35,514 nucleotides of DNA, taken from positions 1 to 35,514 of IMG/VR virus record IMGVR_UViG_3300044732_002378, one strand, 5' to 3'. This DNA is from a virus. The notes beneath the pieces were generated by a model that saw only the letters and a list, made by a program, of their open reading frames with translations, had not been told where the DNA came from and did no database searches. Shown piece after piece: positions 1-28,857 of this stretch (position 1 is its first letter; each line of letters begins with the position of its first letter). Position numbers and translations under genes: made by a program.

Positions 1-2534
1 AATCCAGCAGCATAAGTACCGTCTCGATCAGAACTAGCAACGCTACTTTGAAATAGAGGACCGGCAGACATTCCATCAATAACTAACGCGTCATTAGCCA
101 TTACTCCCATATGTTGAACCCCAGTAACTCCAGCGGTTCCATTTGCAGGCCAACCATTACCCTGACCTGTGTTATTAGTGTTATCTCTAGAATTTGCAAA
201 TCTTAGAGCTCTTACATATTGATTAGATGTTGTAGCTGTAGATCCGGTTCCTAAAGGATTTGTTGTTAGATATGCATCTCCAATACCTTCAAGAGTCATA
301 CCCGATCTTCCGTCAGGAAGTGAGAAATGAGGCTCCATATAACCGGAAGTTCTACCTTGTGCAGTTGGTCCGGTTGCTATAAAAGTTCTTGATAAAGTTC
401 TATCAGCGGATGCAATTCCATAAGATGTAGATCCTAATGCATTTAGGAATCCGGATCCACTGATTAATGAAGTTCTTCTAAGATCTAATATCGATGTAGC
501 TCCTCTTTGTATAGATCCTTCTATTAGAAGACCATTTACAGGAGCAATTGTCTGGGCATTGTGATAACTGTTTGATGTTGATCCTATTCTAACAGAACCG
601 GAAACTGATAATTTAGAATGTGCAGATATCCATAAATTAGGATTTGCGTTTAATTGGCTAACGAATCCAATACCTAAATTACCATGTGTTCCTTCTGGAC
701 CTACCTGCATAAATAATGGAGGTGATACTTTGTCTTGGTAATGATATCCGGAATCTATTCCACTTCTAAGAGCTGCTGTAGGCCCAGTATAGTATGCATT
801 TATTACCGAATCGCTCCAACTCCACTCAACCGCAGTTTCTGAATCTGCGTACCGTGTTGTCGCACCTAATCCAAATCCGATACCAGGTCCAGTTGTGTTT
901 TGAGTTCTACCTGGAGCAAGCCTCCAAGTTGAAGATGCCTCAATATCCATACCTGTTTGTAATACTGATATAAGAGATATTGTAGGAGATCCTGCCCAAT
1001 GAGTACCATTAGTTGCATTCTCATCGAATAGATGTCTAATATGTAATGGAAATAAAGGTCTATATGTATTTCTAGTCCCGCTGCCTGATGATAATCTTCC
1101 GTTTATTCCTAATCTTCTAGATATTAATTGAGCCGTATTTGTGTTTGGAGATCCAATTGTGCTAGATCCTATTACTCTTAATGCATAATCTCCAGTGCTA
1201 CTGGCATTTGTGTTCCATAAAGTTATATGAGAATCTGAAATAGTATCCCATTGATTAATCGGTCTAACTATATTTAAGCCGGATCCAACCTGATAAGCAC
1301 CGAATGGTAAAGTTCCTGCACTATTACTAGTTGGTCCTATAATAACAGTTCCTAATGTATGTGCATATCCAGATCCTGGAATTAAAGATGCGTTAGGAGA
1401 TTGTCTATTTTGTAAAGATATGAATCCCGGATTTGAAAATGCAGGGTTAGCGTTTGATTCAATTACCGAATTAAATTCAATAACATTTGCAATCTGTGTA
1501 TTGAAATTTGGATCTATATACGAAGAACCAATAGCTCTTCTATACATATCAATAGATCTTTTAGCGTCGGCATTTAGAGATTGTCCTGAAAAATCTCTTA
1601 ATCTAATCGTATCCGAAGTTATTCTAAACTCTGGAGATTTTCCATTATTTATGTTAGGATCTATATCTCCGGCCTGTATTTCAAAATCTATAGTATTAGT
1701 TCTGGCTCTAAAAACATGGGAAAATGCTCCGTCATAAACTCTTAGTGCATATCCAGCAGAGAACATATCTCTGGCATCCGACGTAGCTCCAGTAGATCCT
1801 CCGTAAAATGCGGTGGTTCCAATAGTTCCTGTACTTCCGGTCAGACCATAAGCTCCTAATTGCAATCCACCAAATCCAGTTCCATCGATAGAATTTTGAA
1901 CCACCATAAGTTTTGGTGATTTAGTTTGATAAACTCCGTTAGAAATACCATTGAAATTGGATAGGTTCTTTAAAGACTGGTAAGCCCAATCTCTATCACC
2001 TAAGAATAAATTATTCTTGTATATTTTAGAAGGAATGAAAAAGTTTGCGTTTGCATTATCAAGTCCTATCGAAACAGGTCCTTGCTCAGGATACCATCCA
2101 TTGTTAGCTCCATCAATAAGGTTACCGGAAGCTCCTAAATAAAGCTGAAATTCGAAAGATCCTCCGGTTGATCCTCCTGGTCCAGTTGGACCTTTTAGAT
2201 TGGTTCCGGTGAATACCCATGCATTGGTTGCTCCGGCTTGCCACTCCCAAACATCACCATTATTGTCTAACCAATGGTCAGTGTCTTGAAGTGATCCGTA
2301 TACAGGACCATGATCGGATGTAGGACCGGTAAATCCAATTCCACTAGCACCACCAGCTTGCCAGTGATCTCCTCTTTGTCCCTGAGGTCCAGGTATTCCT
2401 TGTGGTCCTATAGCACCTTGTGGTCCAGGAGGTCCACCACCTGCTAAAAGAAGTTGGTCAAAGTTAAAATTTATTTTCTCTAACGCTTCCGATATTGGAT
2501 CTGATGGAAATAGCTCTTTAATTACTATTGGCAT
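1..2534 (-). CDS. Collagen-like tail fibre or baseplate appendage protein (partial, runs off left edge)
   Basis: A frame opens with ATG at 2534 and stays open to base 1, giving at least 844 residues; the C-terminus lies outside the window. The start MPIVIKELFPSDPISEALEK is followed by a collagen-like Gly-X-Y run at about residues 34-57 (eight triplets, such as GPPGPQGAIGPQ). More GPTG/GSTG motifs follow. The rest is rich in Ser, Gly, Asn and Thr with recurring short beta-type segments, as in trimeric fibre shafts. I checked the frame at both ends and at two interior points and found no stop. The start lies 7 bases after the 1644-residue gene, behind an A-rich leader, so it is probably co-transcribed. 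It most likely extends from the virion as a fibre or decoration. The exact role is not recognisable, and a chaperone or adhesin domain could lie beyond the edge. Confidence 0.8.
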   Translation of the reverse strand, partial: MPIVIKELFPSDPISEALEKINFNFDQLLLAGGGPPGPQGAIGPQGIPGPQGQRGDHWQAGGASGIGFTGPTSDHGPVYGSLQDTDHWLDNNGDVWEWQAGATNAWVFTGTNLKGPTGPGGSTGGSFEFQLYLGASGNLIDGANNGWYPEQGPVSIGLDNANANFFIPSKIYKNNLFLGDRDWAYQSLKNLSNFNGISNGVYQTKSPKLMVVQNSIDGTGFGGLQLGAYGLTGSTGTIGTTAFYGGSTGATSDARDMFSAGYALRVYDGAFSHVFRARTNTIDFEIQAGDIDPNINNGKSPEFRITSDTIRLRDFSGQSLNADAKRSIDMYRRAIGSSYIDPNFNTQIANVIEFNSVIESNANPAFSNPGFISLQNRQSPNASLIPGSGYAHTLGTVIIGPTSNSAGTLPFGAYQVGSGLNIVRPINQWDTISDSHITLWNTNASSTGDYALRVIGSSTIGSPNTNTAQLISRRLGINGRLSSGSGTRNTYRPLFPLHIRHLFDENATNGTHWAGSPTISLISVLQTGMDIEASSTWRLAPGRTQNTTGPGIGFGLGATTRYADSETAVEWSWSDSVINAYYTGPTAALRSGIDSGYHYQDKVSPPLFMQVGPEGTHGNLGIGFVSQLNANPNLWISAHSKLSVSGSVRIGSTSNSYHNAQTIAPVNGLLIEGSIQRGATSILDLRRTSLISGSGFLNALGSTSYGIASADRTLSRTFIATGPTAQGRTSGYMEPHFSLPDGRSGMTLEGIGDAYLTTNPLGTGSTATTSNQYVRALRFANSRDNTNNTGQGNGWPANGTAGVTGVQHMGVMANDALVIDGMSAGPLFQSSVASSDRDGTYAAG

Positions 2535-13792: not shown

Positions 13793-16700
13793 TTAGATTA
13801 TTTTTATTATTTCTTTTTTAGTTACAGTTTTCTTGTTTCCGTTTGTGTCTTCTAGAGTCAAAGTTAATGTGTAACTTCCTCTTTCAGTAAACATATAGGA
13901 GAAATACTTATTATTGTAGTATATATCCGTAAAATCAAGATCTCCTTCTTTTTGTAATTTCCATACTGGATTTTTCTTTCCATGTACTTTAGAGTTATCA
14001 TACGTAAAGTTAACAACCGTACATAAAGGTAATTCTTGAGCATATTTAAGAACTCGTATTCCATCCCATGATGGATTTTTTATAAGAGATCTTCCATATT
14101 CAGTACCGATTATACCATTTAGATCTACGTTAATTTCTTGATTACTAGTAAAGTCTTTTCTAATACCTTGAATCTTAACTTCGGTAGCTCCGCTAGTTGG
14201 ACCTGATGGTCCAGTCCATCCAGAGTAACCTAAAACTAAATTAAACTCATAATCTCCTAAACTATTATATGACTGAGCGGTTGGCCCGTTCAATTCGTCG
14301 CATAAATTAGTTAAATTAGTTGATCCTATAGAATAAGGAACACTCATTCCTGGCAATAATATAGAACCGTAAGGTCCGGTTGGGGACACTTGATATATTT
14401 CAAAATGAGTAGGAATATCTCCTAAATATCCAAAATAAACAGTTTCGTATGAATCAGGATCTCCTACAAGGTTATCTAATCTAAGTTTATGTCTAGTTGG
14501 AGAATCAAAATCTTTCGATACCGCTCTTATGTAAGAATGCAATCCATAATTATTTGTATACTCTTCATTATAGTAATAAATGAAGTCTTTAAGGAATGGA
14601 TGATCTATTGATTCATAAGGCATAACCTGATTAAGATGTCTTGCAATTTCCAACATATTTTGTTTATCTGTACCAACAAGATTTCCTATTTCGTATGAAT
14701 CTACTTTATCAATTATGTAAGCCCAATCAGTTCCATTCCACATATACGTTCTACAATTTGCATTTGAAACTATAATTTCTCCAGCAGTAGTTCCTATTAA
14801 CGAAGTAGCTCCAGTAGCTCCAGTATATCCTGTAGGTCCTTGAACATAATGAACATTCAATCCAGAATTAAGATCTACGATAGTATTACCTCTAGTCATA
14901 AAAATATGAGAGGTAGGACCGGTAACTTGATTAATTTCCCATTGAGTCATTTTAGTTCCAGTACCATCCCACCAAAGATGATAAAGATTTTCCCATGTAG
15001 GTAATTCGGTAATCAAATTGTAAGTATATGGAAATCTATCAATAAGAGGATTCGTGCTTGGATTGGTTATGTTTTGATAAAATTCTATCGAATCTAAAGA
15101 GTTAAAACTTATTTCGGCCATTCCAATCTCTTCATTAGGATGAAAAGGTAAATCCCATGTAGAAGCATATTCATCCCATGTTAAAAGAGGATTTTTATTG
15201 GTTTGGTATTCGGAAGGTTTTCTGGAAGAATCGCTCTGAACCGGATATCTTTTAGTATCAAATTCATAATCTAATTCTCTGAATTGATACCATCCAATAA
15301 AATCAGAATCTTGCATTTTTACATGGATCCAATTCTCGTTTATTAGGAAAGACCTTGTGTTATATCCATCCCATAAATAAAGTTCTACCTTATAGGTTCC
15401 TACATAAGGAAGAATTAAAGGCAATTCATTTATGTCTTTAATAGCTTGTGGCCCAGTGTCATATTTGAATTCTGGAGTATCAGTCAATTCCTTAGTAATT
15501 ATCCATTGCATTTGGTAATATCCATAATATCCAAGATTCTCCCATGTATAAACATACTGAGAAGGGAAATTACTCGGGAAATTAGGAACAGGAATATAGA
15601 CTGGAGTAGAAGGACTTACCCAGTTTGGCGATATTGTTTGTGAAACTGTAAATGTTGAGTAAAGTAAACTTTCTAACGTAACGTCATATTGATCTATTTG
15701 ATTGTATGTAACATTAGCATCATCCCAAGTTATATCAAATGTATCATTTCTTAAGATTATCGGATATCCAATAGGAATATCTTCATCATCGTTTAATTGT
15801 CTAACTGTTTGATTGATTCTATCAAAATATCCGATAAAAGCATCTCCATAATAACTCATAGGTGCACCAGAAGGTCCAAAAGTTCCAGAAGGACCAGTTG
15901 AAACGTTAATAGATGTTGCAGTTCCTCCAGTTATACTAGGAATTGAGTATCGTCCGGATCCAGGTCCTACGTTAGTATTACTGTACCAAGTAGCAAATAT
16001 AGTTCCATCTCCAATTGATTCTTTTTGTACTACTCTTATAATTCCAGAAGTTCCTCCTTCTTGATATATTACAAAGTTATCTTTTAAGTAACTGGTTGAT
16101 TTCCAATTATCAATTATAGAATCGGCAACTTCCCATGGTTTATAGACTGTTTGTCCGGTATCAGGATCTCTTCTTATAACAGTATCTAAAGTGATGGCAG
16201 TTGATCCAGTTGGAACGTCTACAATTAATCTATAAGTCTGTACTCCGTCTAAAATACCTCCAACAATAACATCATTAGAAGATAAACCTACTCTCCATGA
16301 AAGTAAATTAGAGCTACCTCCAATTGTTAAATCAGGACCTATCGGAACACCAAAGAAATTTAAAGGTCTGAGATCTTGTAGATAACCTTCTCTTTCCGGA
16401 AGAACTGTGAATTTAGGCTTTAGACCTAATTCTATTGAATCTATTCGGTATTGATCGTTCCAAACATTACATTCGTATTTAGCAAAATAAACCGCTTCTC
16501 CTATAATATCAACGATTCTAGCATTGACCGGTAGAAAATAGTTTTGTAATTTCTTTTTTAATGCGTAGATTTTAATTAAAATCTCTTCCGGAGAAAACAA
16601 AAATACCTCTTCAGCTATAGGTAAACCATCTTCGTCATATTGTCCAGATTCTACGGTTATATCATAGAACAAACCAAATTTACTAGTCTTTTTGTAAATT

Positions 16701-17620
16701 TTACTAGGAACTAAACCGGATGTTATGTAATTTGCACTTTCGTCAAATACGTCGGTTATATTGATTTGCTTATATTTTCCATAATAAGGACTTTGAGCAT
16801 CTACATTTAACCAATACTCTTTCATTCTTAGGTTTTGATATCCAAAGAATTTTATAGCATTAATTAGTGCTTTATAGGATCCTAAATAAGGAAATATGTT
16901 TGAGTATTCTAAAAGAAGTTCTTTTCTTTTATTGTTGATTAATATCCAATCTACACCTTCTTCGTTAACATCAGAAATGTCAAAAACTTTAGTATCTTCT
17001 GGGAGTAAATCATATCCAATTGATTGTAGTAAATCTCTTAGACGTTCATCTTCTTCTTCTCCTTCACCATAAAGTAGAATCTCTGCAAATATATGTCCGG
17101 AAGAATCTTCCATATACAATACAGAAGAAAATCCGTCTTCTTTAGAAGGCTGGAATGCTAAATTAAGTTGTATCGGAGTTGGGTAAGATAAAGTTGTATT
17201 CTTTATGTTTGGATAATTACCTGCAGATGCTCCGATTGTCTGTCCGGGATCATAAGCAAAGTTATATTCAATATCATACAGCTTAGAAAGCGTATTCGTA
17301 GTAGGTCCTAAATCAAATGTGTAAATGAACAAATCCTCTACCGGAAATGAAGGATCAAAATATGCAGATAGCTTAATAGATCCTGAGGTAGAACCTGTAG
17401 GTCCAGGAACTAGAGAATTATCGATTTGAGGGTATGTGTATTCAATTTGACCTGAATTAGTATTGTAAACTTCTTCTAAAATGTACAATTGAAAATCTTC
17501 AATAATACCTTCAGATACAGTTCCAAAATCTACTCTACCTATCCATTTATCATATGTTTCATCATACTCAAAATTTGCGTATTCTCCTTTTTTGTTGAAA
17601 AAATTGAGATATTTATACAT
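13793..17620 (-). CDS. gp7-like baseplate wedge protein with PKD-like domains (1275 aa)
   Basis: The protein lies one small gene after the gp6-like gene, as gp7 does in T4 (T4 gp7 is 1032 aa). Residues about 232-275 contain a helical segment with YLGSYKALINAIKFFGYQ followed by an 'EYW' strand. This pattern is shared by wedge proteins such as P2 gpI-type tail proteins. Residues about 690-770 (VGTYKVELYLWDGYNTRSF) and the last 85 residues (SYMFTERGSYTLTLTLEDTN) look like PKD/Ig-type beta sandwiches. Gly-Pro-Thr/Ser-Gly motifs recur between domains. A wedge role connecting the inner baseplate to the fibres is likely from synteny. The PKD-like modules could present carbohydrate- or surface-binding faces. 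Confidence 0.55.
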   Translation of the reverse strand: MYKYLNFFNKKGEYANFEYDETYDKWIGRVDFGTVSEGIIEDFQLYILEEVYNTNSGQIEYTYPQIDNSLVPGPTGSTSGSIKLSAYFDPSFPVEDLFIYTFDLGPTTNTLSKLYDIEYNFAYDPGQTIGASAGNYPNIKNTTLSYPTPIQLNLAFQPSKEDGFSSVLYMEDSSGHIFAEILLYGEGEEEDERLRDLLQSIGYDLLPEDTKVFDISDVNEEGVDWILINNKRKELLLEYSNIFPYLGSYKALINAIKFFGYQNLRMKEYWLNVDAQSPYYGKYKQINITDVFDESANYITSGLVPSKIYKKTSKFGLFYDITVESGQYDEDGLPIAEEVFLFSPEEILIKIYALKKKLQNYFLPVNARIVDIIGEAVYFAKYECNVWNDQYRIDSIELGLKPKFTVLPEREGYLQDLRPLNFFGVPIGPDLTIGGSSNLLSWRVGLSSNDVIVGGILDGVQTYRLIVDVPTGSTAITLDTVIRRDPDTGQTVYKPWEVADSIIDNWKSTSYLKDNFVIYQEGGTSGIIRVVQKESIGDGTIFATWYSNTNVGPGSGRYSIPSITGGTATSINVSTGPSGTFGPSGAPMSYYGDAFIGYFDRINQTVRQLNDDEDIPIGYPIILRNDTFDITWDDANVTYNQIDQYDVTLESLLYSTFTVSQTISPNWVSPSTPVYIPVPNFPSNFPSQYVYTWENLGYYGYYQMQWIITKELTDTPEFKYDTGPQAIKDINELPLILPYVGTYKVELYLWDGYNTRSFLINENWIHVKMQDSDFIGWYQFRELDYEFDTKRYPVQSDSSRKPSEYQTNKNPLLTWDEYASTWDLPFHPNEEIGMAEISFNSLDSIEFYQNITNPSTNPLIDRFPYTYNLITELPTWENLYHLWWDGTGTKMTQWEINQVTGPTSHIFMTRGNTIVDLNSGLNVHYVQGPTGYTGATGATSLIGTTAGEIIVSNANCRTYMWNGTDWAYIIDKVDSYEIGNLVGTDKQNMLEIARHLNQVMPYESIDHPFLKDFIYYYNEEYTNNYGLHSYIRAVSKDFDSPTRHKLRLDNLVGDPDSYETVYFGYLGDIPTHFEIYQVSPTGPYGSILLPGMSVPYSIGSTNLTNLCDELNGPTAQSYNSLGDYEFNLVLGYSGWTGPSGPTSGATEVKIQGIRKDFTSNQEINVDLNGIIGTEYGRSLIKNPSWDGIRVLKYAQELPLCTVVNFTYDNSKVHGKKNPVWKLQKEGDLDFTDIYYNNKYFSYMFTERGSYTLTLTLEDTNGNKKTVTKKEIIKII

Positions 17621-19634: not shown

Positions 19635-20039
19635 TTATTTTAATTTGCTTGGTACTGGTGCTTTATTATCTCTAGGAGTTGCAGCAATACCAAGTACTTT
19701 TTCTCCATCTATTATTATGTCAACTAATATAGAATCCGTTATATCTCCTTTAATAAAATTGACCTCTATATCGAAAGGTATGTCTTGCGATGATGTCGGA
19801 CAGTATGCAAATATCTGATTATTTATTTCAGACTTTATAGTGGAAGCAGTTATGTTAGGATTCCATAAAAAAGCTTCGAGGTTTACTCCCATTCCAGGAG
19901 CTCCGAATACTTCAGTCTTGCTTGTCGTCAATATCATTTCTATGTATTGAACGAAATTAAACAACCTATCATCTACTTCAAATTGAGTAGAATCATAGTA
20001 TGGATCTGTAGGTATTCTAAGATAAACATCAACCGGCAT
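19635..20039 (-). CDS. Baseplate wedge protein gp25-like (GPW/gp25 family)
   Basis: The length (134 aa) fits T4 gp25 (132 aa). The diagnostic region is residues 31-60, QYIEMILTTSKTEVFGAPGM then GVNLEAFLWNP. It matches the family pattern of an 'I..IL.T..GE....P.fG..L..fLf' helix-loop-helix. In this protein GE is replaced by TE, a mild departure. The C-terminal beta strands include ILVDIIIDGEKVLGIAATPR. In contractile machines gp25 joins the wedge core to the first sheath ring. It sits immediately before gp6, as expected for partners. The start ATG at 20039 follows an AT-rich leader with no Shine-Dalgarno. Confidence 0.75.
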   Translation of the reverse strand: MPVDVYLRIPTDPYYDSTQFEVDDRLFNFVQYIEMILTTSKTEVFGAPGMGVNLEAFLWNPNITASTIKSEINNQIFAYCPTSSQDIPFDIEVNFIKGDITDSILVDIIIDGEKVLGIAATPRDNKAPVPSKLK

Positions 20040-20076: not shown

Positions 20077-20106
20077 GAGGTCACGAGATGATCTCTTATG
20101 ATCCTC
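20077..20106 (-). other. RNA hairpin candidate spanning the stop of the possible neck gene
   Basis: Bases 20077-20083 (GAGGTCA) and 20099-20106 (TGATCCTC) form an interrupted stem with one bulged base. Inside it, GAG (20085-20087) pairs with CTC (20093-20095) around a five-base loop. Two further pairs, past a mismatch, extend the stem outward. The stop codon lies inside. No clear U-run follows on the minus strand (only a TTTTG some 8 bases later), so a strong intrinsic terminator is doubtful. It could be an attenuator or a processing site. It occupies much of the 56-base gap before gp25, one of the longest gaps here. Confidence 0.35.
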
Positions 20107-20875
20107 CAGATGTCATAAAGAAATCCATTCCTTCGTCACCTTTTATTTCCTCTTCTATTTTTTGAAGTTCTTCTTGACCTTCGGTACGAATCAAATCATA
20201 GTTAATTTGAATGTTACCAGGTAGATTAAAGTTAAACGTACCCAAGATTCTAGATAACTGAACTTTACATTTAGCAACTACATATCTGTAGAATATCTCA
20301 TCTTTCATTAAGAATTCAAACGGTAGTTTAACATAACAATGAGCAACACAATCTCTATTTGGAGTTTCGCCTCCAATAAAAAGCTTATTAGAACTTCGAT
20401 TGTAATTATAACTTATTGTGTGGTTTATGATATGCGATGCAACATCTAACCAATACAAGTTCAACGTGTAATACATTAAGTTTTCAGTTCCTTGTCCTAA
20501 TGATACAGAATCTGAAAGAAATAAACGTTCAATACCAAAATCTGCGGTACCGTCAAATGAATATGTTCTACCAAAATCTTCTTTTAGTTTCTTTAAAGTG
20601 AATATCGAAAAGATACATTCCGGTAAAACAATCGATCTACTTCTCTTAAATTCAGTAGATTCAAACGCGGCTTTGGGAATAACTAAATATCTTTCTTCTA
20701 CTGCATCTTCGTATTTTTTATAGAACCAATCTGCCGAGAATTTGATGATACGTTTAATTTCTTCAACAGGAACTGTAAAAGGAAGAGCGCATGCAACGGA
20801 AATCTCTTGTTGGACTAAGGCAATAAATTCATCTTGTGTGAATGCTTGCCCTTCTCCGCATTTTTCATCTATCAT
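20096..20875 (-). CDS. Possible neck/connector structural protein, gp14-like (259 aa)
   Basis: The helical N-terminus (residues 12-60) and beta-rich middle lead to a C-terminal pattern of 'FYRYVVAKCKVQLSRILGTF, then LPGNIQINYD, then an EG..EL..IEEEI segment and DFF'. This recalls the neck protein gp14 of T4-like phages, where an 'LPGGV.LNG' turn follows a long helix and an acidic helix ends in 'DFF.G'. The match is from memory and partial: the tryptophan-glycine motif of gp14 is absent. The start ATG overlaps the amidoligase-like gene's stop by 4 bases (ATGA). The 56-base gap before gp25 separates it from the wedge genes. Other virion connector roles are possible. Confidence 0.4.
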   Translation of the reverse strand: MIDEKCGEGQAFTQDEFIALVQQEISVACALPFTVPVEEIKRIIKFSADWFYKKYEDAVEERYLVIPKAAFESTEFKRSRSIVLPECIFSIFTLKKLKEDFGRTYSFDGTADFGIERLFLSDSVSLGQGTENLMYYTLNLYWLDVASHIINHTISYNYNRSSNKLFIGGETPNRDCVAHCYVKLPFEFLMKDEIFYRYVVAKCKVQLSRILGTFNFNLPGNIQINYDLIRTEGQEELQKIEEEIKGDEGMDFFMTSGGS

Positions 20876-22233
20876 AGTAAATCAAATTTTTTTGTTGGAA
20901 TTAAAACTTTATCTCCGGCAACCATATAGCCAGGTTTTAATTTACGATATTCAATAACGACAGTACTTTTAGATACTACCGCGTGAATTCCAATTCCTCC
21001 ATTTCTAAATAAACCTCCGTTCATTTCGCCATTAAGAACTCCATTAACGCCTTCAAATTCGCAATTACTTAGAACTGTAGTTCTGTTAGCAAATGAATCG
21101 ATTAATTTACAACGATCGGCGGTTAAATCTAAAAATAAGTTACATGATTTGATTACTGCATCTTTAATACTTCCTCCATACATATCACAATTTGTTAAAT
21201 TGCCATATTCAATATCACAATTAACAAAGTCTATATTACTAACATTTGTGCATTTTAATTTAGCATCTCTCAATTGAATAGTAGAAAGAGTAGTATCGTA
21301 ATTAAGCTCAAATTCTCCTTTGAATTCGATATTACAAAATAGATCAAAAATTCTATCTCGTATAGCTTGGTAATACGAATCTATCATTTTAGGATTGTCT
21401 AAAAGATCTACCGTTACTTTAACATTTGGGTAGTTTTTAGCAAATACTGAATAATCAAGATATGCATCTCTTAATTTTTGATGTCTAGATACTATCTTTT
21501 CAAATGATGTTATATTCTCTTTTGAGAATCCGGGGTTAACAGTACAATTCCAAGCCGAAACGCAAAATTCACTTATTATGTCTAAGACTTCCTGTGGTTT
21601 CTTAACATAATCAGCTCCTCCTATATATTGTAGTCTTAAGAAACCTTGATTGAGAGTTTCGAAATTAATACCACATTCGGTGGTTTCTGGTATAGCGTAA
21701 AATTTAGGATCTACTGGAGAATCTTCTCTAGGAATGAATTTTTGTTTAGGTTCAAATCGGTTTATTGACTTAGAGATGTAACCATATCTTCTAGATGGGA
21801 ATACGTCATAAACTTTAGATTCATCAAAATCAAGAATCATCTTAAGTTTATCTATTTTGTCAATAGTTACTCCACTATTGAATAAAGTTCCTTTGAATGG
21901 ACCTCTTTCTGAATCGATGAATTTAATATCCACAAACATATTGTGAAGTTTTTCAGTCTTTCCATTTCTTTCAATCCACTTAAATAAACTAAGAATCAAT
22001 AGACGAGAATCTCTATACGTACAAAACGCGGTTTCTAGGCGGTATATACCGTCAGTTCCTCTAGTCAAATTTATATTGTATCCTCCGGCCGGTTGATTGG
22101 AAACCTTCCTCTTTAACTCCTTAGTGAGTTCGCTTAAAACACGATTAGGGCTCATCTCAGAATCAAATTCCGAGATGAACCTTATCAATGTCTTTTCAAA
22201 GAGTGGAGAAAATGCTAATTTATCGTATTTCAA
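20872..22233 (-). CDS. Amidoligase-like protein with C-terminal pentapeptide/beta-helix tail (453 aa)
   Basis: Residues about 1-300 resemble the COOH-NH2 ligase (amidoligase) family. Supporting pieces are the QPAGGYNINLT stretch (47-57), GVTIDKIDKLKMILDFDESK with VYDVFPSRRYG and YISKS (121-155), and CGINFETLNQGFLRLQYIGG then ADYVKK (187-212). The family's usual 'HxN'-type strand appears replaced by KLHNMFVDIKF (95-105), and I cannot find the paired acidic motif near the N-terminus, so activity may be lost. Residues about 316-412 are five-residue-like repeats (LRDAKLKCTNVSNIDFVNCD), suggesting a right-handed beta-helix. The start is TTG at 22233; no in-frame ATG lies upstream. It follows the S1 gene and overlaps the next gene by ATGA. 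It could modify peptide or cell-wall substrates, or be purely structural. Confidence 0.5.
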   Translation of the reverse strand: MKYDKLAFSPLFEKTLIRFISEFDSEMSPNRVLSELTKELKRKVSNQPAGGYNINLTRGTDGIYRLETAFCTYRDSRLLILSLFKWIERNGKTEKLHNMFVDIKFIDSERGPFKGTLFNSGVTIDKIDKLKMILDFDESKVYDVFPSRRYGYISKSINRFEPKQKFIPREDSPVDPKFYAIPETTECGINFETLNQGFLRLQYIGGADYVKKPQEVLDIISEFCVSAWNCTVNPGFSKENITSFEKIVSRHQKLRDAYLDYSVFAKNYPNVKVTVDLLDNPKMIDSYYQAIRDRIFDLFCNIEFKGEFELNYDTTLSTIQLRDAKLKCTNVSNIDFVNCDIEYGNLTNCDMYGGSIKDAVIKSCNLFLDLTADRCKLIDSFANRTTVLSNCEFEGVNGVLNGEMNGGLFRNGGIGIHAVVSKSTVVIEYRKLKPGYMVAGDKVLIPTKKFDLL

Positions 22234-22269: not shown

Positions 22270-23457
22270 TTACATAGTAAAATCAACTTTTTTGTTTTCA
22301 GTGTCGATTTTAACGATTTTAACCTCTATTTCTTGTCCAACCTCAAATTCAGAATTTTCATCTAATTGAGATTTGTGTAACAATCCAACAACCTTTGGTT
22401 CGATTTCAATAAATACACCGTATTTAACTACTTTACGAACTTTACCAGTCACTGATGATGGAACTTTATATCTTTGTTCGATATCATCCCATGCGGAAAT
22501 TTGAGGTTTTGGTTGTTTTTGCGAAAGTACAATTTTGTTATTGTCTACTATTTCAGATACGAAGAATTCTATCTCTAATCCTGGTTTGATTCGACGATTA
22601 TCAAAATCATCTATTAATGAATCATCAATATCATTTTTAGTTACTAGACCGGTTAAGCAACCGTTAAATTCAACAAAGATTCCGTGCTTACTACATCCAG
22701 TAACGAATCCTACGTATTTTTTATTGAATTCTAATTTAGCAATTTCTTCAGGAATAAATTGTGTAAGATATTCTCTATGAGATACTACGATATAGTCTTT
22801 TTCTCTAGAATAATTGATAGCCATTACGTAAATTTGCTTACCTAAAAGAGATTCAAAATTGATTAATTTGTTCATACCTCCAAGAGATCCTGGCATGAAA
22901 CATGTAGTTCCGTCAATATCTACGAAGTAACCTCCATGAATAAGTTCTTTAACGGTTCCTAGATAAGCAATTGGTTGTCCGATTGAAGCTTTAATTTCTT
23001 CTTTTTTCTTGGCTTGGATATTTTTAGAATATGAAGCAATTATAGAAGATTCTCTTCGATTTGGATTTCTTGTAACTTTCTCAATGATAACTTCAATAGG
23101 GAATCCTGATTGAATGTATTTGAGATATTCTGGATTTTCTTTAGAAAGATCGATCATTGCATCTTCTCTCCAATTAACATCTACGATAGCATATCTATCG
23201 CTTATGGAAACTACTTTACCATTAACTACAGATCCTTCGATTGGCTCTTGTAAATCTAATGCCTTACCGTAATAAAGTTCGTAAAGTTCTTGTGCATAAG
23301 GAGCATGGCAAAAAACTTTGCTGTGATCTCCTGGATGCTTTTTAATTTTTTTGTTCTCTCTTAATTTAGGAGAGTAGGCTTCGTATGCTTCCCAATCAAA
23401 ATCTGGAATTCCTTCCGTTGGTAGATTCTTACGAAGATCTTTTTTTGTTTCTAACAT
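22270..23457 (-). CDS. Ribosomal protein S1 homologue with four S1 (OB-fold) domains
   Basis: The 395-residue protein has four S1 RNA-binding domains, at about residues 74-142, 161-228, 245-313 and 333-395. They follow a 70-residue basic/acidic N-terminal extension. Domains 3 and 4 are the most canonical (YVGFVTGCSKHGIFVEFNG then LTGLV; VTGKVRKVVKYGVFIEIEPK then VVGLLHKSQL). Domains 1 and 2 are more divergent, as in the ribosome-facing domains of bacterial bS1. Cellular bS1 usually has five or six domains, so this is a shortened version. It binds single-stranded mRNA and helps initiation in cells. It sits in the middle of the baseplate module, not among replication genes, so it would be made late. 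The 41-base upstream gap ends in an A-rich leader (ACAACAAAAAA) with no Shine-Dalgarno. Confidence 0.85.
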   Translation of the reverse strand: MLETKKDLRKNLPTEGIPDFDWEAYEAYSPKLRENKKIKKHPGDHSKVFCHAPYAQELYELYYGKALDLQEPIEGSVVNGKVVSISDRYAIVDVNWREDAMIDLSKENPEYLKYIQSGFPIEVIIEKVTRNPNRRESSIIASYSKNIQAKKKEEIKASIGQPIAYLGTVKELIHGGYFVDIDGTTCFMPGSLGGMNKLINFESLLGKQIYVMAINYSREKDYIVVSHREYLTQFIPEEIAKLEFNKKYVGFVTGCSKHGIFVEFNGCLTGLVTKNDIDDSLIDDFDNRRIKPGLEIEFFVSEIVDNNKIVLSQKQPKPQISAWDDIEQRYKVPSSVTGKVRKVVKYGVFIEIEPKVVGLLHKSQLDENSEFEVGQEIEVKIVKIDTENKKVDFTM

Positions 23458-23498
23458 TTTTTTGTTGTTTAAGGGTTTATGAATAAAAAATTATTGAA

Positions 23499-23996
23499 TT
23501 ACGTGATTGTTGCTGGAGCCGAAGGTGCAATAGTTGCACCAGTCACCGGTGCAGGTCCACCACCACCACCGGCTATTGTTATTCCAGGAGGAACTATAAT
23601 CGTTGCTGATTTGATGTAGGTATCAACTTGATCTGCAACATTTTTTGCTATAACTTTAGCAATGATTTTTGAGATATCCGATGATAACCATTCGGCAACT
23701 GAATCCGAAATAGCATTTGACCATTCGTTAGCAGTAACTTTCTTTACTAAGGCACTAGATACCGCCTGTGAAGCTGGATTATCTGCCTTTCCGAAATCAA
23801 TTGCGGATGTTGCAGTTTTTATATTACTAAGAGCTTTATCTATAGATTTTGCTGTTGATAATCCTCCGGTTGCGGATCCTCCATCAAGATAAGTCCTAAG
23901 AGATTTTTTAATATCCGGTTTTTTGAATTCTAAAGTCAATTCTGCTTCTATTCCGGCCTTTAATGCTTGTTCTAATGTTACTTTAATTAGTGGCAT
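23499..23996 (-). CDS. Small unknown protein next to the spike gene (165 aa)
   Basis: The N-terminus MPLIKVTLEQALKAGIEAEL is helical, and the middle is helical (residues about 85-130, with SVAEWLSSDISKIIAKVIAK). The C-terminus is a Pro/Gly stretch (IVPPGITIAGGGGGPAPVTG). It lies 7 bases after the spike gene and 41 before the S1 gene. T4-like phages often place a spike-tip (PAAR) or hub-assembly gene here. I cannot see PAAR motifs, so its function stays unknown. The position suggests a hub or spike-associated protein. Confidence 0.55.
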   Translation of the reverse strand: MPLIKVTLEQALKAGIEAELTLEFKKPDIKKSLRTYLDGGSATGGLSTAKSIDKALSNIKTATSAIDFGKADNPASQAVSSALVKKVTANEWSNAISDSVAEWLSSDISKIIAKVIAKNVADQVDTYIKSATIIVPPGITIAGGGGGPAPVTGATIAPSAPATIT

Positions 23997-24003
23997 AATT
24001 TAA

Positions 24004-24765
24004 TTATTTAACAGTGGTTTTTGGTTTTCCTGATGCTTTACCGCTCAAATGTTGAGCAGGAGTCATGGGTTTTGTTGGTGGTGAAGTAGGTGCTCCTAAA
24101 TTTCCGACATGTGTATGCGTATTAAATAAAGTCATAAATGCATCACCTAATATAACTTTTTCAGTTGCATCTTTACCTAATTGTATTTCTTCTGCTTGAT
24201 CTATAATCACTTTAGAATCCGTTTTAATAGTTATGTCCGATTTTTGTGTTATATTCATTTTACCATCATCTAATATCTCAACTTTACTATCTCCGGAAGC
24301 AGTTTGAATTACTACTGATTTGTCATTTTTGATATTAATCTGAGTTTCTTGATAATCTAGCATAAGTCCTTTTTCCTCGGTAAAGAAGATTTTTAAAGAT
24401 CCTGCAGTTACTGTATCATAGACTATTATATGCGCGTTTTCGTAAGAGTTTTCAATTTCGGCCTTTACTTCATCGGATATTTTTTGATGAAAGAAGTATT
24501 CAGGATGGTATAAATTACCATTGTCGAATTTAACAGAAACTATAGATCCAACCTTAGGAACTGAATGAAATGATCCACCGGTTGCAGAACTTGCAGCTCC
24601 ATTATTTCCTGGATATGCCCATGGAATATCTTCCGGAGGAATTTCGTCAAATTTTCCATATACAACAATTTTTACTCGACCAATCTTCAAAGGATCCGCA
24701 ATATCTACGACTTCACCTAACCAAGAGGTTCCATCTAAATTATCTTTATAGGCATTTTTCAGCAT
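24004..24765 (-). CDS. Baseplate central spike protein (gp5-like/gpV-like, no lysozyme domain)
   Basis: Residues about 14-95 form an OB-fold like that of T4 gp5, phage P2 gpV and VgrG (SWLGEVVDIADPLKIGRVKI; IPWAYPGNNG; PKVGSIVSVKFDNGNLYHPE). Residues about 110-205 are short repeating strands (INIKNDKSVVIQTASGDSKV; MNITQKSDITIKTDSKVIID), typical of the triple-stranded beta-helix needle. A THTH motif (216-219) precedes a Pro-rich tail. The gp5 lysozyme domain between OB-fold and helix is missing, so the spike is a puncturing needle only. It lies 20 bases after the tube-junction gene and next to the hub gene, as expected for hub and spike partners. Confidence 0.85.
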   Translation of the reverse strand: MLKNAYKDNLDGTSWLGEVVDIADPLKIGRVKIVVYGKFDEIPPEDIPWAYPGNNGAASSATGGSFHSVPKVGSIVSVKFDNGNLYHPEYFFHQKISDEVKAEIENSYENAHIIVYDTVTAGSLKIFFTEEKGLMLDYQETQINIKNDKSVVIQTASGDSKVEILDDGKMNITQKSDITIKTDSKVIIDQAEEIQLGKDATEKVILGDAFMTLFNTHTHVGNLGAPTSPPTKPMTPAQHLSGKASGKPKTTVK

Positions 24766-26744: not shown

Positions 26745-28300
26745 TATAGATCTTTATTTGGTGCCGGTATAGGCCATTCTCTTCTAGATAAAATAAGTCG
26801 TGTGTTTACTTGTCCACCTGGTCGATATTTATATTCAATACTTTTTATTATGTAATATCCGCTAAGAAATTCATTTTTTATTTGATCTCTATTATTAGGA
26901 GTTCCTTCCTCATCCGGTACATCTTGTTGTTCGTAATTAGAAATTTTACCAACTCCAGAATCTTTGAATGTATCTGGATTCTTATTAGATTCTCCAATAG
27001 CATCATTTCTACCTTTCATCAATTCAGCATTTTTTGGATTGTTTGATTGGTATATATTGACTGGTATTCTCATGTATTTATACAAATAAAAATTCATACC
27101 GGGTAGTTCAACTTCTAATAAAGTCTTATCAATTTCTTCTAGGTTTTGATGATTAAGGACTCTAGTATAACAATAATTATCATGAACGTTTCCTTGTTCA
27201 GAAACTGGTGCTTGCTTACCCATCCATTTATATTTACTCATTGTTGAGTAAAAATCACCATCGGATCTTCTTCCCTTAAGTAAAATAAAATCAGTTTCTG
27301 CTCCCGGAGTTGTTAACGGATCTGCAAATGCTTTTTCATATGTTATTTCAGTTTCTCCTATATTCATCCATTGAGCATATCGTTTATATCCATTACTCAA
27401 CCAAACATTTCCTGCTTTGTTAAGAACCGTATATTTTTCAATGAACACGTTTTTCCCTGCCATACTTGTTTGATTAGTCAATACTAAAGATCCGTTTATA
27501 GATTCTTCGGTATCTTCCTGTCCAGCCATACCGCTTAAAGGAAATGAAGATGTTATATTAATTTCTTCGACTTTGTCTTCTAATGAAAATTGTTTATTAA
27601 CATTAACAAAGCATAAATAGTAATATGGATCTATATACCAATCAAAGAATGAATCATCATCTTTATAAGCCGAAAATACTACGTCATTAACAAAGGTTTC
27701 ATACGTGTCATATGCACATATTCTAGTCATCGTATCATCTACAGTTTCTTCATTTGTAGCAAAACCGAGTCCGGAATCTTCACAAATATCTTGTAAGTGC
27801 TCAACCGACGTATTTTGAGAAAATGATTTGCATTTTTCTTTAAAGAACTCAGGTATTTTTAGCGAACCAGAGAAGTAGTAATTTTGAGATTCTACGCTAC
27901 ATCCAATAGTCGTTATATTAAAATCTAATCGAATTGGTTTTTGATTAGTAACATCCGGCGGTCTTAAATAGACGGAAATTACATCTCCATCTAGAGGAGC
28001 AGATAGTGATAACTTATTATCGGTATCATGTATAGAAAGATTGACTGTAGGTATTTTACCGTTGAAACTTAAATCAAAGCTAAGTATTTCATCATCAGCA
28101 GGTCTTAATTGATTAATTACAATCATAGGTACTAAAACACCTAAACGAGATGAAGTCTTGAATGGATTAGGTCGGACATTCTGTGTCTTGTCCTGAGCCT
28201 CTTTTGATTCAGAATCCTCTATAAAAATTTCATCAATTTTTAATTTCCCTTTGTAATCGGGTTCTATTAATGATACTATGCTTCTTTCGTATGTACTCAT
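26744..28300 (-). CDS. Baseplate hub protein (gp27-like/gpD-like, 518 aa)
   Basis: The layout fits the hub family shared by T4 gp27, P2 gpD and VgrG N-termini. The first domain (residues about 60-130) has strands such as RLGVLVPMIVINQLRPADD and LSFDLSFNGKIPTVNLSIHD. It is followed by a small helical section beginning KIPEFFKEKC, with 'HLQDICEDSGLGFA' (a typical hub helix), and a second beta-barrel. The position fits too: two genes before the OB-fold spike, next to gp53-like and tube genes. The start overlaps the gp53-like gene's stop by 4 bases (ATGA). As the hub trimer it would bind spike and tube. Confidence rests on fold-like pattern and synteny, not on an alignment. Confidence 0.65.
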   Translation of the reverse strand: MSTYERSIVSLIEPDYKGKLKIDEIFIEDSESKEAQDKTQNVRPNPFKTSSRLGVLVPMIVINQLRPADDEILSFDLSFNGKIPTVNLSIHDTDNKLSLSAPLDGDVISVYLRPPDVTNQKPIRLDFNITTIGCSVESQNYYFSGSLKIPEFFKEKCKSFSQNTSVEHLQDICEDSGLGFATNEETVDDTMTRICAYDTYETFVNDVVFSAYKDDDSFFDWYIDPYYYLCFVNVNKQFSLEDKVEEINITSSFPLSGMAGQEDTEESINGSLVLTNQTSMAGKNVFIEKYTVLNKAGNVWLSNGYKRYAQWMNIGETEITYEKAFADPLTTPGAETDFILLKGRRSDGDFYSTMSKYKWMGKQAPVSEQGNVHDNYCYTRVLNHQNLEEIDKTLLEVELPGMNFYLYKYMRIPVNIYQSNNPKNAELMKGRNDAIGESNKNPDTFKDSGVGKISNYEQQDVPDEEGTPNNRDQIKNEFLSGYYIIKSIEYKYRPGGQVNTRLILSRREWPIPAPNKDL

Positions 28301-28857
28301 TGTTGTAATTGATCAGATGATGGAAACCTTGGAGATGATACGGATGGTGCAAAAATAAGTCTAGTGCCATCAGTTGAAAATGGAACTTCTCCTGGTCTTA
28401 ATAAGTTAGTAGGTTTTGGTTCAATTGAGCCATTCTTTCGTTTAGTTGATATTTTTTGCAATTGCTTTAGGCGATTAATATCTTTTTGACTCGCTCTTTT
28501 AGGATCTAAAAATAAAGCCTTAGTATCCTTGGTTAATTGAGAATTGTTTGCATTCTTTTGATAAAATCTAACAAGAGAATCTGAAGTTGGAACTACTATA
28601 ATATCATATAGCTCAATTGAAAACGGATTGCATATTTGATTAAATTTTAGAATAGCATCTATATAATCAGTATTTCCATATGCCTCGAATGAAAGCAAAT
28701 CAGGTCTACATAGATGTTTATCCTCTACGAGAATTACTTTTTGTATTCGCAAATATGGATCTTTGTAATTAACTTTAAAGTTATTATCAGTAAAATCCAT
28801 GATGTATTCTCCGTTTCTGAGCATCTCATTCTTGAGATCAAATAATTTAATGTACAT
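28297..28857 (-). CDS. gp53-like baseplate wedge protein with LysM-like region (186 aa)
   Basis: Residues 51-90 read RPDLLSFEAYGNTDYIDAIL, then KFNQICNPFSIELYDIIVVP. This matches the gp53 pattern 'RPDLIS...YG..DYW..I...N.I..PF....G..L.IP'. The LysM-like fold binds the wedge and helps dimerise neighbouring wedges in T4 (gp53 is 196 aa). The C-terminus is Pro- and Ser-rich and probably disordered. The gene is coupled to the hub gene by an ATGA overlap and follows the tube-like gene after 6 bases. Confidence 0.7.
   Translation of the reverse strand: MYIKLFDLKNEMLRNGEYIMDFTDNNFKVNYKDPYLRIQKVILVEDKHLCRPDLLSFEAYGNTDYIDAILKFNQICNPFSIELYDIIVVPTSDSLVRFYQKNANNSQLTKDTKALFLDPKRASQKDINRLKQLQKISTKRKNGSIEPKPTNLLRPGEVPFSTDGTRLIFAPSVSSPRFPSSDQLQQ

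Follow-up and report, generated by a model that had tools for sequence, protein, structure and literature searches.

A four-domain ribosomal protein S1 homologue among the tail genes of a phage without Shine-Dalgarno sequences

A gene located among the tail genes of a phage encodes a homologue of the ribosomal protein bS1. Gram-negative bS1 has six S1 domains; the phage protein has four and is missing D5 and D6. We consider it rather probable that it is a minimal phage bS1, which docks on the host 30S subunit and favours A-rich messages lacking a Shine-Dalgarno (SD) sequence late in infection. The phage would probably steer the host ribosomes by means of this shortened S1, an idea that, in the portion of the literature available to us, has been proposed before for such viruses.

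Reading frame, domain register and predicted fold

The S1 gene occupies positions 22270..23457, on the minus strand, of the window, by which we mean the whole stretch of DNA analysed: an entire IMG/VR record of 35,514 bases that is part of a larger phage. The initial annotation, made from the letters alone, had described a 395-residue frame with four S1 domains and had given no strand. The frame is real, starts with ATG, lies on the minus strand and is supported by Pfam, NCBIfam and an AlphaFold model of the 395-aa product; a plus-strand gene at 22270-23457 was ruled out, since there are stops throughout. The S1-domain search that the annotation had proposed, expecting at least two matches, found PF00575 in four stretches (E=5e-25), scoring 88 bits where the cut-off is 22, and the two C-terminal stretches pass alone (Pfam, genome search), in agreement with its claim of two canonical domains. 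Searches of the window for tRNAs and Rfam RNAs, and of deposited phages for close DNA matches to the window, found none.

The top NCBIfam models for the protein are all 30S ribosomal protein S1, and residues 66-394 are collinear with positions 39-372 of 580 in the bS1 models. All of these scores are far below the NCBIfam cut-offs: the NF004952-type bS1 equivalog cut-off was not reached (166 bits vs 524), and the Bacteroidota-type bS1 model, NF004953, was not the top scorer (141 vs 166). The four OB domains follow one another on the minus strand. Domain 1 (approximately residues 74-150; 23008..23238) has R97 where E. coli bS1 has K43, and domain 2 (approximately residues 160-232; 22762..22980) carries the GG and F-x-PGS motif that marks D2 of bS1, which fixes the register of the protein as D1-D4. 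Domain 3 (approximately residues 245-316; 22510..22725) was recognised by Pfam and in the model, and domain 4 (approximately residues 330-395; 22273..22470; Pfam E=9e-15) is the most canonical S1 domain. The four-domain form, which the initial annotation had taken as a sign of a specialised version, is not peculiar to this phage but widespread in huge phages.

The AlphaFold model contains four OB barrels (mean pLDDT 82, pTM 0.55), the relative placement of which is uncertain. Its top Foldseek match is ribosome-bound E. coli bS1 in a 30S mRNA delivery complex (9gut, E=1.6e-25), and the structural alignment with E. coli bS1 covers 316 residues, from bS1 residues 2 to 346, with a Z score of 14.5. 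The rmsd of the whole alignment is large, reflecting the flexible domain order, and single domains fit to 1.5-2 Å, a range that also holds for domain 4 compared with structures of bS1 D4. The top PDB match by sequence is chain A of 9zcd, the bS1 of a Bacteroidia-like ribosome, an entry that contains both bS1 and uS2; a literature search for a paper naming 9zcd found none.

The N-terminal tag and the ribosome-anchor positions

The N-terminus of about 70 residues, previously described as unique, instead holds a bacterial bS1 motif and a uS2-anchor helix. The motif, DFDWEAYE (residues 19-26; 23380..23403, minus strand), fits the pattern (D/N)F(D/N)W(D/E)xYE, the N-terminal tag of Bacteroidia-type bS1. 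It is letter-identical in 7 of 78 Bacteroidales bS1s, with close variants in the rest, although this set is biased, having been retrieved partly via the motif and passed through a filter that demanded a similar one. An unbiased draw from the phylum by way of the TIGR00717 model gave 47 readable bS1s: F(D/N)W stands 138-141 residues before the D2 motif in 7 and is missing in the other 40. The seven tag-bearing proteins group with named Bacteroidales bS1 (support 100/100), a clustering from which we infer their assignment to Bacteroidia. Across ten phage and three bacterial rows F20, W22 and E26 are invariant, and the tag pattern, looked for in all 768 proteins of the loci, is confined to the S1 proteins.

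Among the phages the tag is not universal. Strict or related forms ([FY]xW) were present in 42 of the 51 distinct near-clade N-termini, and in the other nine the tag is lost or degenerate, as it also is in LR756500 and in the four phages with the largest genomes. The Lak phages carry the forms GSFNWTPYE and GSFDWSPYD. A later or independent gain of the tag is conceivable. As a separate observation, bS21 was found in 4/4 of the largest-genome phages without the tag (LR756502, LR745206, LR756501 and LR756504; all >630 kb) and not in six other S1-bearing records searched, three of which are fragments; LR756500 has neither tag nor bS21. A link between loss of the tag and a phage bS21 is a lead only, the four phages being one clade and possibly one event, and among bacteria bS21 was present in 30/30 tested, tag-bearing or not.

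Behind the tag, the model places a helix (residues 55-63; 23269..23295, minus strand) equivalent to the N-terminal helix by which bS1 is anchored on uS2, and it aligns with E. coli bS1 from residues 2-5 on. In E. coli, bS1 F5 and F9 stack on uS2 F32, K43 reaches into the zinc pocket of uS2, and F120 and F130 of OB2 face the SD region (PMC10123108). Aligned with these residues, the window protein has L58/Y62, R97, and Y177 and F187, respectively, and Bacteroidia bS1 has L/Y, K, M or L, and F. The L/Y pair at F5/F9 occurs in Bacteroidia and most phages, and also in other members of the phylum; most phages have R or K at the K43 position, and F130 is invariant. The exceptions are T (relative L016) and S (Lak) at K43, and E at F9 in LR756501. 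Judged from the alignment, most uS2-contact positions are conserved in kind, and in the window protein both the anchor helix and the basic residue at K43 are kept, by sequence position and by fold.

These features bear on the possibility that the protein works away from the ribosome, as an RNA chaperone, an RNA-protecting protein or a transcription partner. Host S1 does serve Q-beta replicase or RNA polymerase (reviewed in PMC10931766), and Q-beta complexes with S1 (4q7j, 4r71) were among the fold matches; the uS2-anchor helix, the basic residue at the K43 position and the FDW tag point instead to a ribosomal site, and we regard an off-ribosome role as unlikely.

Gene neighbourhood, relatives and descent

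The tail setting described in the initial annotation was borne out: the S1 gene lies between a gpV/gp5-like spike and more tail genes. Upstream are a 165-aa protein that varies among relatives (23499..23996, minus strand), the gpV/gp5-like baseplate spike (24004..24765, minus strand) and a wedge-like protein (28297-28857), with head/tail proteins also among these neighbours. On the downstream side are a pentapeptide-repeat protein recognised by Pfam (20872..22233, minus strand), which follows S1 in nearly all near relatives, a further tail gene (20096-20875), a weakly gp25-like protein (19635-20039) and a head-tail-adaptor-like match. By eye, and without Pfam support, the N-terminal part of the pentapeptide-repeat protein is amidoligase-like, as is that of its counterpart in L025 (22302-23609). 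Elsewhere in the window, the 1275-aa product of 13793-17620, which matches PKD weakly at its C-terminal end, is probably a tail adhesion protein, and an open-ended, structural-looking gene (gene 24; 1-2533, minus strand) has a collagen-like GPQG repeat near its N-terminus.

A tblastn search of 50,697 phage records found relatives in LR756500 (462 kb), in Lak phages, and in LR756502, LR745206, LR756501/503 and LR756504 (635-735 kb), the homology to huge-phage S1 spanning 76-88% of the query, and a profile scan of viral contigs found at least 583. The relatives come from contigs 246-294 kb long and from genomes of 462-735 kb; the window itself is a 35.5 kb fragment. Three phage-labelled records, MT835643, CAKLQH020000011 and CAKLQF020000009, carry full-length bacterial rpsA, which in the one from Acinetobacter (MD-2021a) is flanked by cmk and himD; they are probably bacterial contigs and entered the comparisons as bacterial rows only.

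The neighbourhood raises the alternative that the protein is a structural, virion-associated baseplate protein, or a tail-assembly chaperone, with a re-used S1 fold. Its neighbours are the spike on one side and baseplate genes on the other, and in 77/77 near-clade viral contigs few insertions interrupt the run of tail genes downstream of S1, with the spike upstream wherever the contig extends that far. However, these 77 contigs were chosen by similarity, and their fixed synteny is partly a matter of close kinship. LR756500 retains the tail-gene block around S1, and in LR756502 and LR745206 the genes next to S1 are homologous to others of the window, genes 22 and 23, but in LR756501 and LR756504 it lies outside this block, and in Lak phages it is beside Thg1 and DnaB-like helicase genes, which argues against a purely structural role. 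Moreover, a tail protein would not need the conserved ribosome-anchor positions and the bS1 tag. The position among the tail genes is ancestral to the near clade, yet not required, and the virion-protein option of the initial annotation is weakened to the point that we think it improbable, if somewhat less so than the other alternatives discussed here. Two further observations concern these loci. Upstream of the Lak S1, the gene at 19008-19886 of L030 resembles, by eye and without a Pfam or PHROG match, a gp45-type sliding clamp. Immediately upstream of S1, three phages of the largest-genome group have a gene for a protein of about 130 aa that ends in a UVR (UvrB/UvrC) motif (L026 19439-19855, L029 19430-19840 and L027 19460-19849), found by Pfam in two and by eye in the third.

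In the phylogeny, the 17 phage S1 proteins form one clade (support 100/100), apart from cellular bS1. This clade is deeply divergent, so that a recent transfer from a host was rejected. Its stem is about 3.8 changes per column long, and the tree fixes neither the root nor the place of the clade among bacterial bS1: joining the phages with Bacteroidia was not rejected, though nearly so (p-AU 0.059), joining them with Proteobacteria was not rejected either (p-AU 0.114), and the OB-domain sequences do not put the phage clade inside Bacteroidota. The evidence for a Bacteroidia link is therefore the N-terminal tag, together with the host predictions published for the largest genomes and Lak (PMC7162821), and not the OB domains. 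The S1 family is under strong purifying selection; for the close relatives L007 and L010, dN is 0.029 and dS 0.38 (dN/dS of about 0.07).

Shine-Dalgarno absence, proposed function and known systems

The lack of SD sequences noted in the initial annotation was confirmed, with a strong SD in 0 of 23-25 window genes. Between -14 and -9 the window leaders have an A fraction of 0.6-0.8 and almost no G, and the S1 gene itself has an A-rich, SD-less leader (23458..23487, minus strand). The relatives are alike, with 0-2 SD-like sites per 44-149 genes, and in window and relatives the A-rich peak falls at about -11 to -14, close to the place expected for S1 (PMC6847099). Genes of F. johnsoniae have A at -12/-13, the expected site of S1, as well as at -3/-6 (PMC6847099). 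Bacteroidia ribosomes hide the anti-SD, and host ribosomes ignore the SD (PMC9976891). Because the likely hosts are Bacteroidota, which make no use of the SD anyway, its absence is not independent evidence for the function of S1, and we discarded it as such: a phage of Bacteroidota would look SD-less with or without its own S1. Of the proposal that the protein replaces or competes with host S1, the core stands as the best reading, on the bS1 homology and the retained anchor features, but the arguments drawn from the N-terminus and from the missing SD have to be revised.

Under the minimal-bS1 reading, the protein would go back to a cellular bS1, its likeliest source being a Bacteroidia-type host, and would have retained the FDW tag, the uS2-anchor helix and D1-D4 and dropped D5-D6. 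Made as a late gene along with the tail proteins, as has been argued for phage bS21 (PMC9723584), it would dock on the host 30S at uS2, instead of or beside host bS1, and D2-D4 would hold the A-rich, SD-less phage leaders, leading to efficient initiation on late phage messages. We infer the docking, the exchange with host bS1, the preference for phage messages, the late timing and a Bacteroidota host for the window phage. In E. coli, D1-D3 are essential and sufficient for active initiation complexes, D4 helps and D5-D6 are dispensable (PMC3858243), and the bS1 of F. johnsoniae raised initiation on a single SD-less mRNA twofold (PMC9976891). That the phage form corresponds exactly to the E. coli initiation core D1-D4, and that F. 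johnsoniae bS1 stimulates, favours the minimal-bS1 reading. A more specific version, which we put forward tentatively, is that the FDW tag serves as a docking peptide for Bacteroidia ribosomes specifically, by which a dedicated minimal phage bS1 would turn ribosomes over to phage messages late in infection, in a host that does without SD pairing.

The same architecture could alternatively make a dominant-negative S1, taking the uS2 site and, without D5-D6, lowering host translation (shut-off) instead of promoting that of the phage. The anchor parts are kept and the C-terminal RNA-binding domains are lost, and the Lak forms, which also lack D4, fit this slightly better. However, E. coli with bS1 minus D5-D6 is viable (PMC3858243), implying that D1-D4 are active. 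S1 folds are retained in D3-D4, strong purifying selection acts on the family, and we find such a role quite unlikely.

S1-domain proteins of huge phages and the lack of SD in those phages were reported in 2020 (Al-Shayeb et al., PMC7162821). In the part of that report available to us, the general idea of a phage S1 steering host ribosomes is already published, and the true rpS1 status of these proteins is described as hard to confirm. Its Mahaphage and Lak S1 proteins are homologous to ours and come from SD-less genomes, the window phage being a further near-clade member. That part gives the presence of S1 and the correlation with SD, a link that may just reflect the hosts; the N-terminal tag, domain register and synteny are not in it. 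The present analysis adds the register of the four domains, the anchor positions together with the Bacteroidia tag, a wide near clade whose conserved gene order and departures from it are described, and the point that the host confounds the SD argument. bS1 is the proposed stand-in for start-site choice in Bacteroidota without SD pairing (PMC6847099), and a natural, minimal, strongly selected phage bS1 with a class-specific tag is a compact tool to test the role of bS1 in this phylum.

Compared with known systems, the cellular Bacteroidia bS1s (9zcd chain A, Bacteroides, Dysgonomonas) share with the phage S1 the FDW tag, the L/Y anchor helix and the order D1-D4; they are about 600 aa long, with D5-D6 and a tail, and 25-28% identical to the phage protein, which has 395 aa and a longer linker after the tag. 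The bS21 of Bacteroidetes phages (PMC9723584) is likewise a ribosomal protein whose gene lies in a structural region, with a proposed role in redirecting initiation at a late stage, but it is a different ribosomal protein, and late co-transcription with structural genes was measured there. The jumbo cyanophage PhiMa05 also encodes a bS1 (PMC13157829); unlike the window S1, which belongs to an old, strongly diverged clade, it is close to Vampirovibrio bS1 and accompanied by five other ribosomal proteins. The top viral fold matches, S1 proteins in BFVD (Virus NIOZ-UU157 and an uncultured marine phage), are of the same length class, carry automatic names and are 33-38% identical to the phage S1 over about 360 columns.
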